A stretch of DNA of 64,000 bases from Halosolutus gelatinilyticus (lineage in GTDB: Archaea; Halobacteriota; Halobacteria; Halobacteriales; Natrialbaceae). Location of the stretch: assembly GCF_023028105.1 (NCBI RefSeq), contig NZ_CP095491.1, positions 3,720,001 to 3,784,000 of the forward strand, in the 5' to 3' direction. Of this stretch, positions 3,073 to 26,649 are shown piece by piece. The notes beneath the pieces are model-generated. The model was not told the origin of the DNA and ran no database searches. It saw only the letters and a list, made by a program, of their open reading frames with translations. Positions within the stretch are counted from its first letter, which is position 1; every line of letters starts with the position of its first letter. A program made the position numbers and the translations under genes.

Positions 3073-3507
3073 TTAGGCACGAGCACGGGTATGCTCAGGC
3101 GCGTCAGCCTTGCTGTTCGCGTAGGCATTATACGCCGAGAGAATAGCGGTGACCGCCCCTGAGATCGCGGTCCCGGTGGCCAGCGTGTCGCTCCCCATGT
3201 CGATAACGGAGGGTGCAGCGACCAGCCAGAGGCCTAGGAGAACGGCTAGCGATGCGACGCCGACGCTCGCCAGCCGGTCTCTCGACAGCCGGACGAAGTT
3301 GTATCCGGCGAGCAGGAAGATCCCAGTCCCGACGAGCGTATCATTCCAAGCCGCCGCGTCCGTCGACTCGAAGATGAACGGCGACGCGACAACGTAGAGG
3401 CCGATCAGTGCGACAAGGGCGCTCACCCACTGCATTGCATCTGTGTTCAGGGAATTGTAATCGTCCCGTCTACCATGGTTCATTTTAGAGTCTGTTGTAT
3501 CACTCAT
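3073..3507 (-). CDS. SPW-repeat membrane protein
   Basis: The 144-residue product has two copies of a two-helix membrane unit. The first, around residues 26-75, has WVSALVALIGLYVVASPFIF then WNDTLVGTGIFLLAGYN. The second covers about 80-130. The W...SP and W-N-D spacing is characteristic of the SPW family, which is of unknown function. A GAGGA ribosome-binding motif lies just before the ATG at 3507. The first 20 residues are polar and cytoplasmic. Confidence 0.75.
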   Translation of the reverse strand: MSDTTDSKMNHGRRDDYNSLNTDAMQWVSALVALIGLYVVASPFIFESTDAAAWNDTLVGTGIFLLAGYNFVRLSRDRLASVGVASLAVLLGLWLVAAPSVIDMGSDTLATGTAISGAVTAILSAYNAYANSKADAPEHTRARA

Positions 3508-3521
3508 GATTCCTCATCTTA

Positions 3522-3561
3522 GGGGTCTCCACCGTTTAAGGAGGGTCTCCACCGATTAAGG
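3522..3561. repeat. 20-bp tandem repeat in the SPW gene promoter
   Basis: Two adjacent copies of GGGTCTCCACCGnTTAAGG lie 15-55 bases upstream of the SPW gene start. On the minus strand each copy supplies a CCTTAAnCGG box that could act as a TATA-like or operator element. Confidence 0.6.
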
Positions 3562-3802
3562 AAAACGTACGTGCCTGCACCTGTCGGGATGATTGGTGAC
3601 TGGTACTTCATCACCTACTCTTCCGTTCTTTACCTGTTCAGACCGTCTTCTACCGAGTGAACACACGCGTTTATCTCTCGTATGCGCTCCATATCTTCTA
3701 TTATCCGCACATGCTATTTGGAAAATGATTATCAAACTACATTTTTCGACTTGCTGGTGCTGGCCGAAGTCTCCTGTCAGTAGGGGCTGGTGATATTAAT
3801 TG

Positions 3803-4762
3803 ATGTCACGTAAGCCAGATATAACCTCTCCACACGAGGGGACGACCAGACACGAAGAGAGAAGGAGAACCGAGGAGGAAATGGCGACCAGAGATGAGGA
3901 GAGAATGACTACTGAGAAGGGGAGATCTCGTCCCCGTCTAATTGATGTAGTCACTCTCATCGGCCTTGGTTACGTACTCCGAGATTGGTTTGGTTCAGTA
4001 AGCGAAAAGGTCGGTTCTGAGGGAGACGGCTCCTCAAAGCAGGGTCATGGAGCCATTGATACAGTCAAAAGTCGTACGTGGAGGACGACCCACGGTGCGG
4101 CTGATCAAGTCCAGAAGGGCGGTAAAAAAGTAGCAAAAAAGACGGAGAGGACCACGGAGAACGTCGCCAACCGAATTAGAGAGTCCAGCGAGGGGATCAG
4201 CGATCAGATCGAAGAGGGAAGTAAACAGATCGGTGATATGGTCGAAGAAAGTGGTGAAGAGGCGGGTGAGATGCTCGAAGAGGCGGGCGAGATGCTCAAA
4301 GAGGGTGGTGAGGAGACCGGCGAGATGGTCGAAGAAAGTGGTGAAGAGGCAGGTGAGATGGTTGAAGAGAGTGGTAAGAAGACAGGTGAGATGGTTGAAG
4401 AGAGTGGTAAGAAGACAGCTGAGACGGTCGAAGAAGGTGGCGACGAAGTAGGCGGGACGCTCCGAGAAGGTGATGAGGAGACCGGTGAAAGGCTTGAAGA
4501 AGGTGGCGACGAAGTAGGCGGGACGTTCCGAGAAGGTGATGAGGAGACCGGTGAAAGGCTTGAAGAAGGTGGCGACGAAGTAGGCGGGACGTTCCGAGAA
4601 GGCGATGAGGAGACCGGTGAAATGCTCGAAAAAGGTGGTGAAGAAGGAGAAGACGATGGTGAGGACACGAGAGAAAAGATGAGAGACGGCGGGAAAGAAA
4701 TAGTCGAAAAGACTGAGGAGGAAGCAATAGTAGACCGTATCCGTCAGATTCTATCAAAATAG
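3803..4762 (+). CDS. LEA-like protein built of 11-residue amphipathic repeats
   Basis: I take ATG 3803, directly after a possible TTG at 3800, giving 319 residues. After a charged N terminus there is one hydrophobic segment (RLIDVVTLIGLGYVL, about residues 50-65). From about residue 110 to 295 the protein is an array of 11-mers such as EEAGEMVEESG, KKTGEMVEESG, EETGERLEEGG and DEVGGTFREGD. The last units alternate as 22-residue blocks that are almost identical at DNA level. An 11-residue period is typical of group-3 LEA proteins, apolipoproteins and similar amphipathic helices that bind membranes or protect dried proteins. Function here is inferred only from the repeat geometry; no homologue is recognised. 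Confidence 0.7.
   Translation: MSRKPDITSPHEGTTRHEERRRTEEEMATRDEERMTTEKGRSRPRLIDVVTLIGLGYVLRDWFGSVSEKVGSEGDGSSKQGHGAIDTVKSRTWRTTHGAADQVQKGGKKVAKKTERTTENVANRIRESSEGISDQIEEGSKQIGDMVEESGEEAGEMLEEAGEMLKEGGEETGEMVEESGEEAGEMVEESGKKTGEMVEESGKKTAETVEEGGDEVGGTLREGDEETGERLEEGGDEVGGTFREGDEETGERLEEGGDEVGGTFREGDEETGEMLEKGGEEGEDDGEDTREKMRDGGKEIVEKTEEEAIVDRIRQILSK
4436..4640 (+). repeat. 66-bp tandem DNA repeats inside the LEA-like gene
   Basis: Three near-identical 66-bp units encode (G)DEVGGTnREGDEETGERLEEGG. The second and third units differ from the first by only a few bases, so the array grew recently by slippage or unequal crossing-over. Confidence 0.75.
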
Positions 4763-5030
4763 AAAACTTCCGAGATGTCGATATTGAATGTGCGCAGTAA
4801 GTAGGTCTACTGAGTAGTTGGTTCCTCGTCGTTGACGCGAAACAAAACGAAGCCTCTATGCGGAACGCATCTTCTATATTCAGCAGGCGACTTTTGGCAT
4901 ACTTCGGACAAATCAATAGCTGCCTTGGTAACTGCTTGTCCTATACTGAACACAGCTTTCACAGCTAGCTCTAAATAAAGAAATCGTTCAACTATCTACT
5001 GGCAAGAGTCGATCGACCGGAGTTCAGCCA

Positions 5031-23186: not shown

Positions 23187-23261
23187 GGGTTGGTGGTCTA
23201 GTCTGGTTATGACACCTCCTTGACATGGAGGAGGCCGGCAGTTCAAATCTGCCCCAACCCA
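23187..23261 (+). tRNA. tRNA-Val (GAC)
   Basis: The cloverleaf is complete: acceptor GGGTTGG with CCAACCC plus discriminator A, anticodon stem CCTCC/GGAGG around the loop TTGACAT (anticodon GAC), and T arm GGCAG-TTCAAAT-CTGCC. It lacks encoded CCA and introns. Its 3' tail GTTCAAATCTGCCCCAACCC is copied twice downstream, as described for the direct repeats. Confidence 0.95.
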
Positions 23262-23267
23262 CTACTT

Positions 23268-23383: not shown

Positions 23384-23604
23384 TTTTTGACGACGCAACG
23401 ACGACAAGCGGAGCGAGGAGTCCTCGTTGTCAGGCTCTGTTGAAACCCTATTCTTCAAATGTATTTGAGCGCGAAACGTACGCTCACTACACATGCGCAC
23501 TGACCAGCCGAACTCGGTTACAGAAGGTCTTCAAATCCCGATCGTTTCTACGGTCAATTACCAAATCGATCATAGATTTGATGGGGGATTCCACGGTGAC
23601 CACT

Positions 23605-23790
23605 TTAGCGAACGAAACTCTGGACAATAACCGCAATAGCGAAGAGAGTTCCGCTGATGAACGTAAAGAACCCACCCCAAAAGAGACCGACTGCCGTATC
23701 AGCGTACAGCGAGTACAGACCCATCGCTGCTATCCACAGCATCAGCACACCGAGAACCAACACCGCGCCCCCATCGTTGAGAGGGTTCAT
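23605..23790 (-). CDS. Small membrane protein inside the transposon-like unit
   Basis: From ATG 23790 (MNPLNDGGAVLVLGVLMLWI) the 61-residue product has two hydrophobic helices separated by a short YADTAVG turn. A GTG at 23814 is an alternative start. It is on the same strand as the ABC genes and follows them, so it may be an accessory subunit. No family is recognised. Confidence 0.5.
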   Translation of the reverse strand: MNPLNDGGAVLVLGVLMLWIAAMGLYSLYADTAVGLFWGGFFTFISGTLFAIAVIVQSFVR

Positions 23791-23934
23791 GGTGAACAAC
23801 GACCCGAACGCCACGGTAGCACAACCGCACCCACGTGTACAATGAACGCGAATATCGACTCGAGTGGAGTACCCCGTCCTTTGTCGATCTCTTATCCCCC
23901 TGTGTCGCGCCAGTGGTATAGCACTCGTGCGCTG

Positions 23935-25680
23935 TCAGTGCAGTTCGTGGGTCTCGAACCTTCGTATCGCTCCACGATAGGCGCGCCAAGCGACCAGTAG
24001 TCCACCGAAAACCAGCAGTATGCCGAATCCACTCCGGAAGGCAGTGAGCGGGAGCCCCTGAATTGTCGCGCCAGCGTCGTTCAGCGACGACGCGAGGGTG
24101 GTGAGTACTCCTCCGCTGGCGACTAATCCGAGAATGAATCCCGGAATGTAACCGATCCCAGAGAGCGCCAGCCTCACCAACTCCGGTGCTGCCACGAGTC
24201 CAACCAGCGCCGCGCCGGGAAGCCACATCAACACAACGTGAAGCACACCCGCGAGCAACCGGGGTGGTCGTACTCCGTCGCTGTTGCCGATGCGGATGGC
24301 ACTGTAGCGCGGGAACCACATCCCGACTATCGGTGCGAGTGTCGTCCCGACAACGGTGAGGAAGCATCCGATCAGTGTCAGCGCTATCGCCGCCAGTAGT
24401 CCGTATCCCCCTACGAGTGCCGTCACAAGCGTGACAACGGTGACGACAGGCGCGAACAGCAGACTCGGGGCGATGAGTCCGCGGACGAACGCCCGACCCG
24501 AAACGGCGGTCAGGGTTGTCGGCAGGACGGCTCCCTCGTCGCCGAACGGGTTGAGACCGAACGCAGCGCCGGCGGTCCACCCAAGCAACACGGCGATGGC
24601 TGGTCCCAGTATTGCGAGCGAGCCGGACCCCTGTAGCATCATATTCACTAATGCTGAGCCGCCACCGAATACCGGGATCAGCAGGAAGTTTAACCGCTGA
24701 GGTTCCCGACGGGCTCGCAACAGAGACCATTCAGCAACGTGACGGGTTGGACCGGTGATGAACGGGACGCCGAGGGGGCTGATGGCCCGCTCAAGGGCTC
24801 GCTGATCGCCCTCCGTGCGGGTGGAGACGGAAGTTTTGCCAGTATCAGAAACGGTGATCGACTCGCCAAACCAGAACGAGGTGGCAATACGCTCGGAAAG
24901 CCAGCTTCCACCGATGAGCACCACGCTAACCGCGACCACTCCCCCGAGAGCGTGTGTCGATGACCAGCCGATGGGCGTGCCAACCGCCAGTAAGTCTGCG
25001 AGCCACCCAGTCGGAATCACTCCGAGCGTGGCTGGACTGATCGAGATAGGCAGTTGCGGTACTTGGAACAGGAAGTAGATGCCGAAAAACAGCATCACAA
25101 CCGTCCCGCCCAGCACGCCCTTGTGACGAGCAACGAACGGCACGTTGGCCACAAGCCATGCAGCACAATACCCCAGCAGGCGACCGGCCGTAACCGCGCT
25201 GGCGACGTACAGACTGCCGACCAGCGAGACTGCCAGAAGGGTCAGTGGTGCACTGAAGGCGTATGCCCCGGAAATGGCGAGGAGGAGGCCGACCGGGAAC
25301 ACATACGTCAGCACTCGCAGGCTCTCGGCGACGATGCCCCCGACGACGGCGGTTCTAGGTGAGACGGTCGTCAGCACGAACGCATCGGCGACCGGTTTAC
25401 TATGCGCCGTCGTCGTCCGCTGCGCGAGCATGAACGTCCCAAACACCCAGAGCATGGCGAGCGTTCCTCTGACGATCCGATTTATCGAGAACTCTGGATC
25501 CGTCCCCCGGAGTTCCGGAACGAACAGGACCGCGAATCCCGTTAGCAGGAGCGTCATGAAACCTACACCGCCAGCCATCAAGATCAGCCGACCAGTGTCT
25601 TCCCGAATCGCCCGGACAGAACGCTGATAGTCGAACCAGCCCATCCGAATGGCATGCCCGAGCCAGCCCGATTCAGCCAT
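23935..25680 (-). CDS. ABC transporter permease (ABC-2-like)
   Basis: ATG 25680 (MAESGWLGHAIRMGWFDYQR) gives 581 residues with about twelve hydrophobic segments in two sets. A polar middle region (about 285-330) contains ISPLGVPFITGPTRHVAEWS. The layout, a fused pair of six-helix halves, fits the ABC-2 type exporter permeases of haloarchaea. The start overlaps the end of the ATPase gene by 8 bases, so the two are co-translated. The substrate is unknown. Confidence 0.75.
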   Translation of the reverse strand: MAESGWLGHAIRMGWFDYQRSVRAIREDTGRLILMAGGVGFMTLLLTGFAVLFVPELRGTDPEFSINRIVRGTLAMLWVFGTFMLAQRTTTAHSKPVADAFVLTTVSPRTAVVGGIVAESLRVLTYVFPVGLLLAISGAYAFSAPLTLLAVSLVGSLYVASAVTAGRLLGYCAAWLVANVPFVARHKGVLGGTVVMLFFGIYFLFQVPQLPISISPATLGVIPTGWLADLLAVGTPIGWSSTHALGGVVAVSVVLIGGSWLSERIATSFWFGESITVSDTGKTSVSTRTEGDQRALERAISPLGVPFITGPTRHVAEWSLLRARREPQRLNFLLIPVFGGGSALVNMMLQGSGSLAILGPAIAVLLGWTAGAAFGLNPFGDEGAVLPTTLTAVSGRAFVRGLIAPSLLFAPVVTVVTLVTALVGGYGLLAAIALTLIGCFLTVVGTTLAPIVGMWFPRYSAIRIGNSDGVRPPRLLAGVLHVVLMWLPGAALVGLVAAPELVRLALSGIGYIPGFILGLVASGGVLTTLASSLNDAGATIQGLPLTAFRSGFGILLVFGGLLVAWRAYRGAIRRFETHELH

Positions 25681-26497
25681 CGGTATTCTCCTCAACGACC
25701 CTCTGGTCAGCGGTATCGGCGGCGCTGGCCTCACTGTCCGTCTCTCCTGCGGTGCCGCGCTCGTCGGTCGTGAGTTCGAGGAAAGCATCCTCCAGCGAGC
25801 GCGTCTCACCAGTCTCTGCGCGGCGTTCGAGATTAGCGGGCGAACCTTCAGCGACCAACTCTCCATCGTAGAGGATTCCGACCGTGTCAGCGACCTCTTC
25901 GACAACAGGGAGGATATGCGTCGAGAGGAAGACGGTCGTTCCCGCGTTGGCGAGTTCCGTAATCATCTCCCGGAGCGTCCGTGCAGCGCGTGGATCCAGC
26001 CCGGACGTGGGTTCGTCAAGGAAGACCACATTGGGTTCGTGGAGGACGGCCTGTATGTAGGCGGTTTTCTGCCGCATTCCCTTCGAATAGTCCGCGATCC
26101 GCGTGTCGGCATCTGCCGTGAGATCCAGTTTGTTGAGGAGTACATTGATTCGGTCACGTGCCGCTTCCGCGGGGAGATCGCGGAGACCGGCGGCGTATTC
26201 GAGCTGTTCGTAGGCCGTCGCGTGGTCGTACAGTGGTGGTTCCTCGGGTAAGTATCCGATGTGGGTGCGGAGGCCGTCTCGGTCCGTGATCGAGACGCCA
26301 GCAACGGAACCGGCTCCCTTGGTTGGCCGTGTAAGCCCGGTTAACATTCGCATCGTCGTGGTTTTCCCTGCGCCGTTCGGCCCAAGAAATCCGTAGACCG
26401 ATCCACTTGGGATAGAAAGATCTAGACCACTGATGGCGGTAGTCTCGCCATATTGCTTTGTTAATCCTTTAGCGAAGACAGCAGGTTGATCGTTCAC
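25673..26497 (-). CDS. ABC transporter ATP-binding protein
   Basis: The 274-residue ATPase shows Walker A GPNGAGKTTTMRMLTGL (about residues 39-55), the Q-loop region GYLPEEPPLYDHATAYEQLE, a weakly conserved signature YSKGMRQKTAYIQAVLHEP, Walker B VVFLDEPTSGLDPRAARTL and the switch His in STHILPVVEEVAD. This type pairs with ABC-2 permeases for export. Its TATA box GGTTATAATG lies 22-31 nt upstream of ATG 26497. Confidence 0.9.
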   Translation of the reverse strand: MNDQPAVFAKGLTKQYGETTAISGLDLSIPSGSVYGFLGPNGAGKTTTMRMLTGLTRPTKGAGSVAGVSITDRDGLRTHIGYLPEEPPLYDHATAYEQLEYAAGLRDLPAEAARDRINVLLNKLDLTADADTRIADYSKGMRQKTAYIQAVLHEPNVVFLDEPTSGLDPRAARTLREMITELANAGTTVFLSTHILPVVEEVADTVGILYDGELVAEGSPANLERRAETGETRSLEDAFLELTTDERGTAGETDSEASAADTADQRVVEENTDG

Positions 26498-26518
26498 AGG
26501 ATGGTGTTTTCATACGTA

Positions 26519-26528
26519 CATTATAACC
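26519..26528 (-). promoter_or_regulatory. TATA box of the ABC exporter operon
   Basis: GGTTATAATG on the minus strand, 22-31 nt before the start codon, lies inside the transposon-like unit. The cargo therefore brings its own promoter. Confidence 0.5.
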
Positions 26529-26649
26529 TTTCTTGTGACAGCTTCCGAAGATAGTGAACAATGCATATCCTGTACTGACCGTAGAGCACTCAGAATACGT
26601 CAGCTGTTGAGGGTTTCAACAGAACCCGTCGTCAAAAATCGTTACGGGC

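Follow-up and report, generated by a model that had tools for sequence, protein, structure and literature searches.

The gene of an 11-residue-repeat protein of Halosolutus gelatinilyticus as probable cargo of a haloarchaeal cassette/array element

Introduction

What kind of protein is encoded by a gene of Halosolutus gelatinilyticus that repeats an 11-residue unit through most of its length, and by what route did this gene reach its present position? The gene (3803..4762, plus strand; ATG start, 319 codons) is located in a stretch of 64,000 nucleotides (contig NZ_CP095491.1, positions 3,720,001 to 3,784,000), hereafter termed the window, to which the coordinates refer unless another locus is named. 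The original prediction, made from these letters alone, had envisaged a LEA-like, membrane-tethered protein of desiccation or osmotic stress on an accessory island. Haloarchaea swap genes on a large scale, and the single-gene carriers among them are poorly known. According to the comparisons presented here, the repeat gene is probably one of the cassettes carried by a cassette/array element of haloarchaea, and its product a tethered amphipathic membrane helix.

Results and Discussion

Repeat structure of the encoded protein

The repeat periodicity of the 319-residue protein is genuine: residue identity at lags of 11, 22 and 33 amounts to 0.38, 0.45 and 0.31, respectively, versus 0.13±0.02 in shuffled sequences (2000 shuffles, maximum 0.22), and hydropathy power peaks at 3.65 residues, i.e. 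11/3 (385, compared with at most 76 in the shuffles). The degenerate part of the tract (residues 86–155) shows the signal as well; the periodicity analysis on which the original prediction had staked its refutation thus returned a significant 11-residue signal. The units extend over codons 86–282 (4058..4648, plus strand), degenerate at first and then regular, and their register comprises approximately five degenerate 11-mers upstream, one 7-mer, 11 full regular 11-mers and one partial unit; the number of about fourteen units given beforehand was a fair estimate. The seven-residue irregularity that had been noticed corresponds to the unit GEMLEEA (residues 155–161; 4265..4285, plus strand), which is kept in several orthologues; 7 and 11 residues are each close to a whole number of helix turns. 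The 66-bp tandem duplications described at the end of the tract were recovered by TRF (4430..4646, plus strand; period 66, 3.3 copies, 95% match). The regular unit resembles GEMVEESGEEA, in which positions 3, 4 and 11 are apolar, positions 1, 7 and 8 hold small residues and the others are mostly acidic.

The protein is strongly hydrophilic (net charge −46), and its last third, rich in Gly and Glu, may be coil. A structure predicted from two-sequence input, of low confidence (mean pLDDT 53), contains a single helix from residue 82 to 211 and coil after residue 212. The single hydrophobic segment upstream of the repeats (codons ~45–66, RLIDVVTLIGLGYVLRDWFG / RLIDVVTLIGLGYVLRDWFGSV; 3935..4000, plus strand) is short and includes one Asp; its core is invariant in the orthologues, the region LIGLGYVLRDW being almost unchanged among them. 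This segment is likely a membrane anchor, and the tether proposed for it is plausible. The length of the repeat tract varies among the orthologues from 75 to 159 residues. The gene immediately upstream encodes an SPW-repeat membrane protein (3073-3507, minus strand), and a 20-bp tandem repeat, GGGTCTCCACCGATTAAGGA, is situated between the two genes (3523-3562); another SPW gene is found approximately 8 kb from the plasmid copy of the repeat gene in Halomontanus.

Profile matches and putative function

The top Pfam match of the repeat protein was Apolipoprotein A1/A4/E (PF01442; E 2.5e-10), at 40.8 bits versus the curated cut-off of 90 bits for membership, followed by YtxH and then apolipophorin III, both under their cut-offs. 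Three scrambled versions of the protein, obtained by shuffling the residues or the residue order within each 11-mer and one of them retaining the 11-residue period, gave zero matches; the Apolipoprotein match therefore reflects amphipathic order and not composition, and a composition artefact as source of the profile matches is ruled out. None of the solved structures searched matched as a relative. Membership in the LEA, apolipoprotein, YtxH and phasin families was rejected, the respective matches being absent or under cut-off. Viral contigs and phages contained no relative, and the PHROGs yielded only a weak tape-measure match; a viral origin of the gene was rejected.

The protein is most likely an acidic amphipathic helix of 11/3 geometry that is tethered to the membrane; this geometry, as modeled, would be compatible with lipid-surface binding of the apolipoprotein type. 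Held by its conserved hydrophobic segment, the helix might run along the membrane or project from it, with even chances for the membrane-lying arrangement; it could coat or buffer the membrane much as helices of the apolipoprotein, synuclein or LEA-3 type do, and the number of repeats would determine its length.

The main rival to the membrane-tethered helix takes up the stress role originally proposed: a true LEA-3-like protein of desiccation or osmotic stress that would be disordered when wet, turn helical on drying and shield proteins and membranes. Tandem amphipathic 11-residue units as in LEA group 3 (LEA_4) are indeed present, with what we take to be the apolar spacing of the LEA-3 consensus; the high hydrophilicity and the net charge would fit, and universal stress protein genes occur within about 8-9 kb of the gene in two plasmids. 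However, the profile search against the LEA families found no LEA model in Pfam at E<=1, with the sub-cut-off Apolipoprotein profile as best match; a conserved hydrophobic segment is atypical of LEA-3, the neighbours of the gene are not conserved, and haloarchaeal proteins are acidic generally. Of the LEA-like amphipathic helix the 11/3 geometry was retained and the LEA membership was not; both the LEA-3 identity and a role in stress protection are considered unlikely. Less probable still, the protein might coat polyester granules as an amphipathic, phasin-like protein instead of acting at a membrane: the weak matches to Phasin_2 of Pfam (E 0.033) and TIGR01985 (E 2.5e-4) that would speak for it are far under the curated cut-offs, the conserved hydrophobic segment argues against it, and no polyester-synthesis genes are listed next to the annotated plasmid copies.

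Distribution and horizontal spread of the repeat gene

Clear orthologues were detected in nine of the 61 Natrialbaceae genomes searched, and two other species of the same genus lack the gene. Four orthologues reside on plasmids (Halomontanus, Natrinema, Halostagnicola and Natronosalvus); Halomontanus rarus possesses two copies, one chromosomal and one on a plasmid. The copies share no neighbour genes, yet conservation at the DNA level extends beyond the gene, over roughly 160-340 bp on its upstream side and some 130 bp on its downstream side. Synonymous divergence across the orthologues (dS 0.03-0.41) is far below that of trpD (0.50-0.77): for the non-repeat part of the gene, dS was 0.029 versus 0.50 for trpD in comparison with a genome of a different genus (G025), and 0.16-0.41 versus 0.57-0.77 in comparison with the other genomes. 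These differences indicate that the gene has almost certainly spread horizontally, and recently. Its median dN/dS of 0.44 would be compatible with a functional protein (1.08 against G025, on few changes).

More distant haloarchaeal proteins (L013, L015, L016) combine a hydrophobic segment (GL.GIGY.LRR) with 11-mers that follow it; this wider family, with a clear putative anchor and 11-residue helices, bears no Pfam or NCBIfam name and may be the chromosomal source from which the cassette gene descends.

Element ends and target duplications

Full copies of the repeat gene sit within transposase-less elements with asymmetric inverted ends (54 nt left, 49 nt right; GGCTCTGTTGAAACCC...TGCTGAATACA) and 8-bp target duplications; where the copies are more complete, the conserved block opens with GGCTCTGTTGAAATC..GTGCTGAATACACAGCGCG and closes with GGCTCTGTTGAAACCC..GTGCTGAATACAGAGGATG in inverse orientation. 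Direct duplications of 8 bp, with one mismatch at most, flanked 17 of 25 distinct adjacent inward end pairs and none of 1500 offset controls. The gene lies in a complete element of 1402 bp in Halostagnicola larsenii and of 2226 bp in Natronosalvus caseinilyticus, each with both ends and a 7/8 duplication. For the Natronosalvus copy the uninterrupted (empty) site is preserved on a plasmid of Halomarina BCD28, and no relative showing an empty site was found for the H. larsenii copy. In the latter (L037), the right outer end begins approximately 110 nt past the inner motif and not approximately 36 nt, because a degenerate junction with a 39-nt spacer (see below) precedes it.

End models trained without the loci of the repeat gene match its copies with E values down to 7e-14. 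The same ends bound unrelated haloarchaeal genes (GNAT acetyltransferase, glyoxalase-like, GrpB, GYD, HNH, PD-(D/E)XK, PAS kinase with cupin, HEAT repeats, small membrane proteins) or nothing at all. The left-end consensus gave 187 matches on 116 plasmids and zero in phage records, and the strict two-part end pattern occurred in 21 of 391 genomes (reversed control: 0). On this evidence, the repeat gene very probably is a cassette with inverted ends and 8-bp target duplication; the accessory island originally suggested can accordingly be refined to the cargo of a transposase-less cassette/array system bounded by inverted ends.

The elements insert with duplication of 8 bp of target, presumably mobilised in trans by a transposase, putatively of the DDE type. 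The search for a transposase bearing these ends found none: IS1595 and IS6 were rejected as parents on their ends (CGCTCTTCTGTAGG and GGCACTGTCTAG, respectively) and ISL3 on its absence from 292 haloarchaea; the IS5/ISHtu1 transposase adjoining a Haloterrigena end is an insertion into that end. Insertions of IS5/ISHtu1-like elements (ends GGCCTTGTTTAGACGC, 9-bp duplication) are often located directly after a TGCTGAATA motif, and thereby in cassette ends or junctions (L158 5061-5996; L049 5328-6306 and 12377; L007 3515; L062 1556; L137 2466; L068 251, the last locus having been chosen without reference to cassette motifs).

Junction sites and cassette arrays

Inside the elements, the inner arms of a right and a left end are fused into one site of ~85 bp, TGTATTCAGCA-N39-TGCTGAATACA (written by its arms, CTCTGTATTCAGCA-N39-TGCTGAATACAGAG). 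Among 57 distinct full sites, the spacer measured 39 nt in 46 of the 49 with resolved arms. The junction model matched 192 times over all loci and never in reversed sequences, a count from loci partly selected for these motifs and not a genome-wide rate; the consensus had 105 matches on 45 plasmids. Co-oriented runs comprised 14, 9 and 7 sites, the two longest on arrays of Haloprofundus plasmids, in which mostly zero or one annotated gene separates successive junctions. Tandem one-gene cassettes split by co-oriented sites, as expected of an integron, were present in four arrays (L147, L179, L180, L181). In the long arrays L180 (8097-21758), L179 (12859-21207) and L147, several segments carry no annotated gene.

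The plasmids of N. caseinilyticus, N. rutilus and N. halobius contain different cassettes at one common integration site (ACTCTAAC), and homology between the first two begins at the junction. Composite elements with internal junction are flanked by duplications (perfect in L154, 7/8 in L051 and L141); arrays can thus move as units. From the motif comparisons, the existence of arrays with a defined junction appears highly probable and the exchange of cassettes at this junction quite probable; within an element, cassettes would be swapped at the ~85-bp site between them.

Alternatively, the junctions might be independent small dispersed repeats, similar to the SMRs of Haloquadratum, or terminators, and the arrays ordinary intergenic repeats in which no cassettes are exchanged. 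None of the 41 mapped junctions falls within an annotated gene (coding share of the DNA 54-67%), as would be expected of dispersed repeats and of cassette junctions alike; small repeats are abundant in Haloquadratum, from which MITEs, PATEs and SMRs have been described (PMC3119063), and homologous recombination between similar repeats could swap genes as well. Such an origin is nevertheless improbable: each half of a junction corresponds to the inner part of a transposing end, one of the right end and the other of the left, the long runs are co-oriented with one gene each, 8-bp duplications flank the composite elements with internal junction, and a recombinase gene adjoins the sites.

Candidate recombinase of the junction exchange

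The array of Natrinema salinisoli includes a gene for a tyrosine recombinase of ~224 residues; an element of Halorubrum encodes a recombinase that shares 89% identity with it. Five further recombinase loci, few in number and chosen by the protein alone, all had junctions nearby (distances of 27, 29, 119, 929 and 3219 bp). An identity as IntI or archaeal XerA was rejected on scores (integron integrase TIGR02249, 20.7 bits versus the 265-bit cut-off; XerA, 46.9 bits versus 220). By its position, this recombinase is a somewhat favored candidate for the exchange enzyme of cassette arrays, in which case it would carry out the reaction at the junction.

The cassettes of the window

The gene in the window is preceded by a conserved non-coding cassette leader (3630..3802, plus strand), recognized by comparison of the copies, from which the outer left end of the other copies is absent; Rfam returned no RNA family for the leader. 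To the right, a degenerate cassette junction with a TATATTCAGCA arm and a 39-nt spacer (4863..4921, plus strand) was detected by a model trained without the repeat gene loci (E 2e-4). Both outer ends of this cassette are unrecognisable; the copy is probably a relic cassette that lost its left end and kept a degenerate junction to its right.

A second, complete element of 3194 bp with the same ends occupies 23433..26626 of the window (no strand assigned), and G025 shows the empty site. It is flanked by an 8-bp target duplication on the plus strand (left copy CGTTGTCA, 23425..23432; right copy CGTCGTCA, 26627..26634). Its cargo consists of an ABC transporter ATPase (25673..26497, minus strand; Pfam ABC_tran, E 1.2e-28) and a probable permease partner (23935..25905, minus strand), which is hydrophobic, adjoins the ATPase and has no Pfam match. 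A tRNA-Val gene (23187-23262) is located close to this element.

Comparison with known systems

Apolipoprotein A1/A4/E (PF01442) and apolipophorin III (PF07464), which were among the best profiles for the repeat protein and match it in dependence on residue order, likewise consist of 11-residue amphipathic helical units; unlike them, the repeat protein is very acidic, Gly-rich and archaeal, with a putative N-terminal hydrophobic anchor. LEA group 3 proteins and synucleins resemble it in 11-residue periodicity, apolar spacing and hydrophilicity; the lack of a LEA model at E<=1 and the putative anchor set it apart. A single hydrophobic segment followed by a long amphipathic helix also characterizes YtxH-like proteins (PF12732; 20.5 bits versus 37.5) and the haloarchaeal L013 and L015, and the latter two share the style of the 11-mers; the long regular repeat tract and the cassette mobility are restricted to the family of the window. 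If it is a mobile 11-mer helix that lies on the membrane and varies in length, the protein would represent an archaeal counterpart of apolipoprotein- and synuclein-type helices.

Mobile insertion cassettes (MICs) and MITEs represent established classes (PMC3129680); the cassette elements share with them inverted ends, target duplication and cargo genes without transposase, but differ in their asymmetric two-part ends, composite multi-gene arrays and defined internal junction. For a MIC a cognate IS with the same ends is expected; for the cassette elements none was found, and IS1595, IS6 and ISL3 were excluded. With integrons the arrays have in common co-oriented one-gene cassettes between repeated sites and a tyrosine recombinase close by; unlike integrons, they are framed by transposon-like ends. 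The ~85-bp junction, which we take to differ from attC, does not behave as a single-strand-folding attC-like site: its arms do not covary (complementarity 8.33/11 versus 8.24 for shuffled partners) and its consensus is different. Archaeal integrons have been reported in metagenome-assembled genomes of nine phyla, in a paper whose main text has no word starting with "halo" (PMC9668308); no earlier description of the present ends, sites or arrays was found in the open-access literature, and the cassette/array system is apparently undescribed.

On balance, we slightly favor the reading that haloarchaea own a gene-capture system apart from integrons, in which a dedicated tyrosine recombinase, with the ~224-residue protein as candidate, would assemble one-gene cassettes at ~85-bp inverted-arm sites, and arrays framed by inverted ends would be moved with 8-bp duplications by a trans-acting transposase; the 11-residue-repeat gene would be one such cassette. 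End matches on 116 plasmids, together with junction matches on 45, point to a general gene carrier in haloarchaea, one that would be comparable to integrons but with another recombinase and another site.
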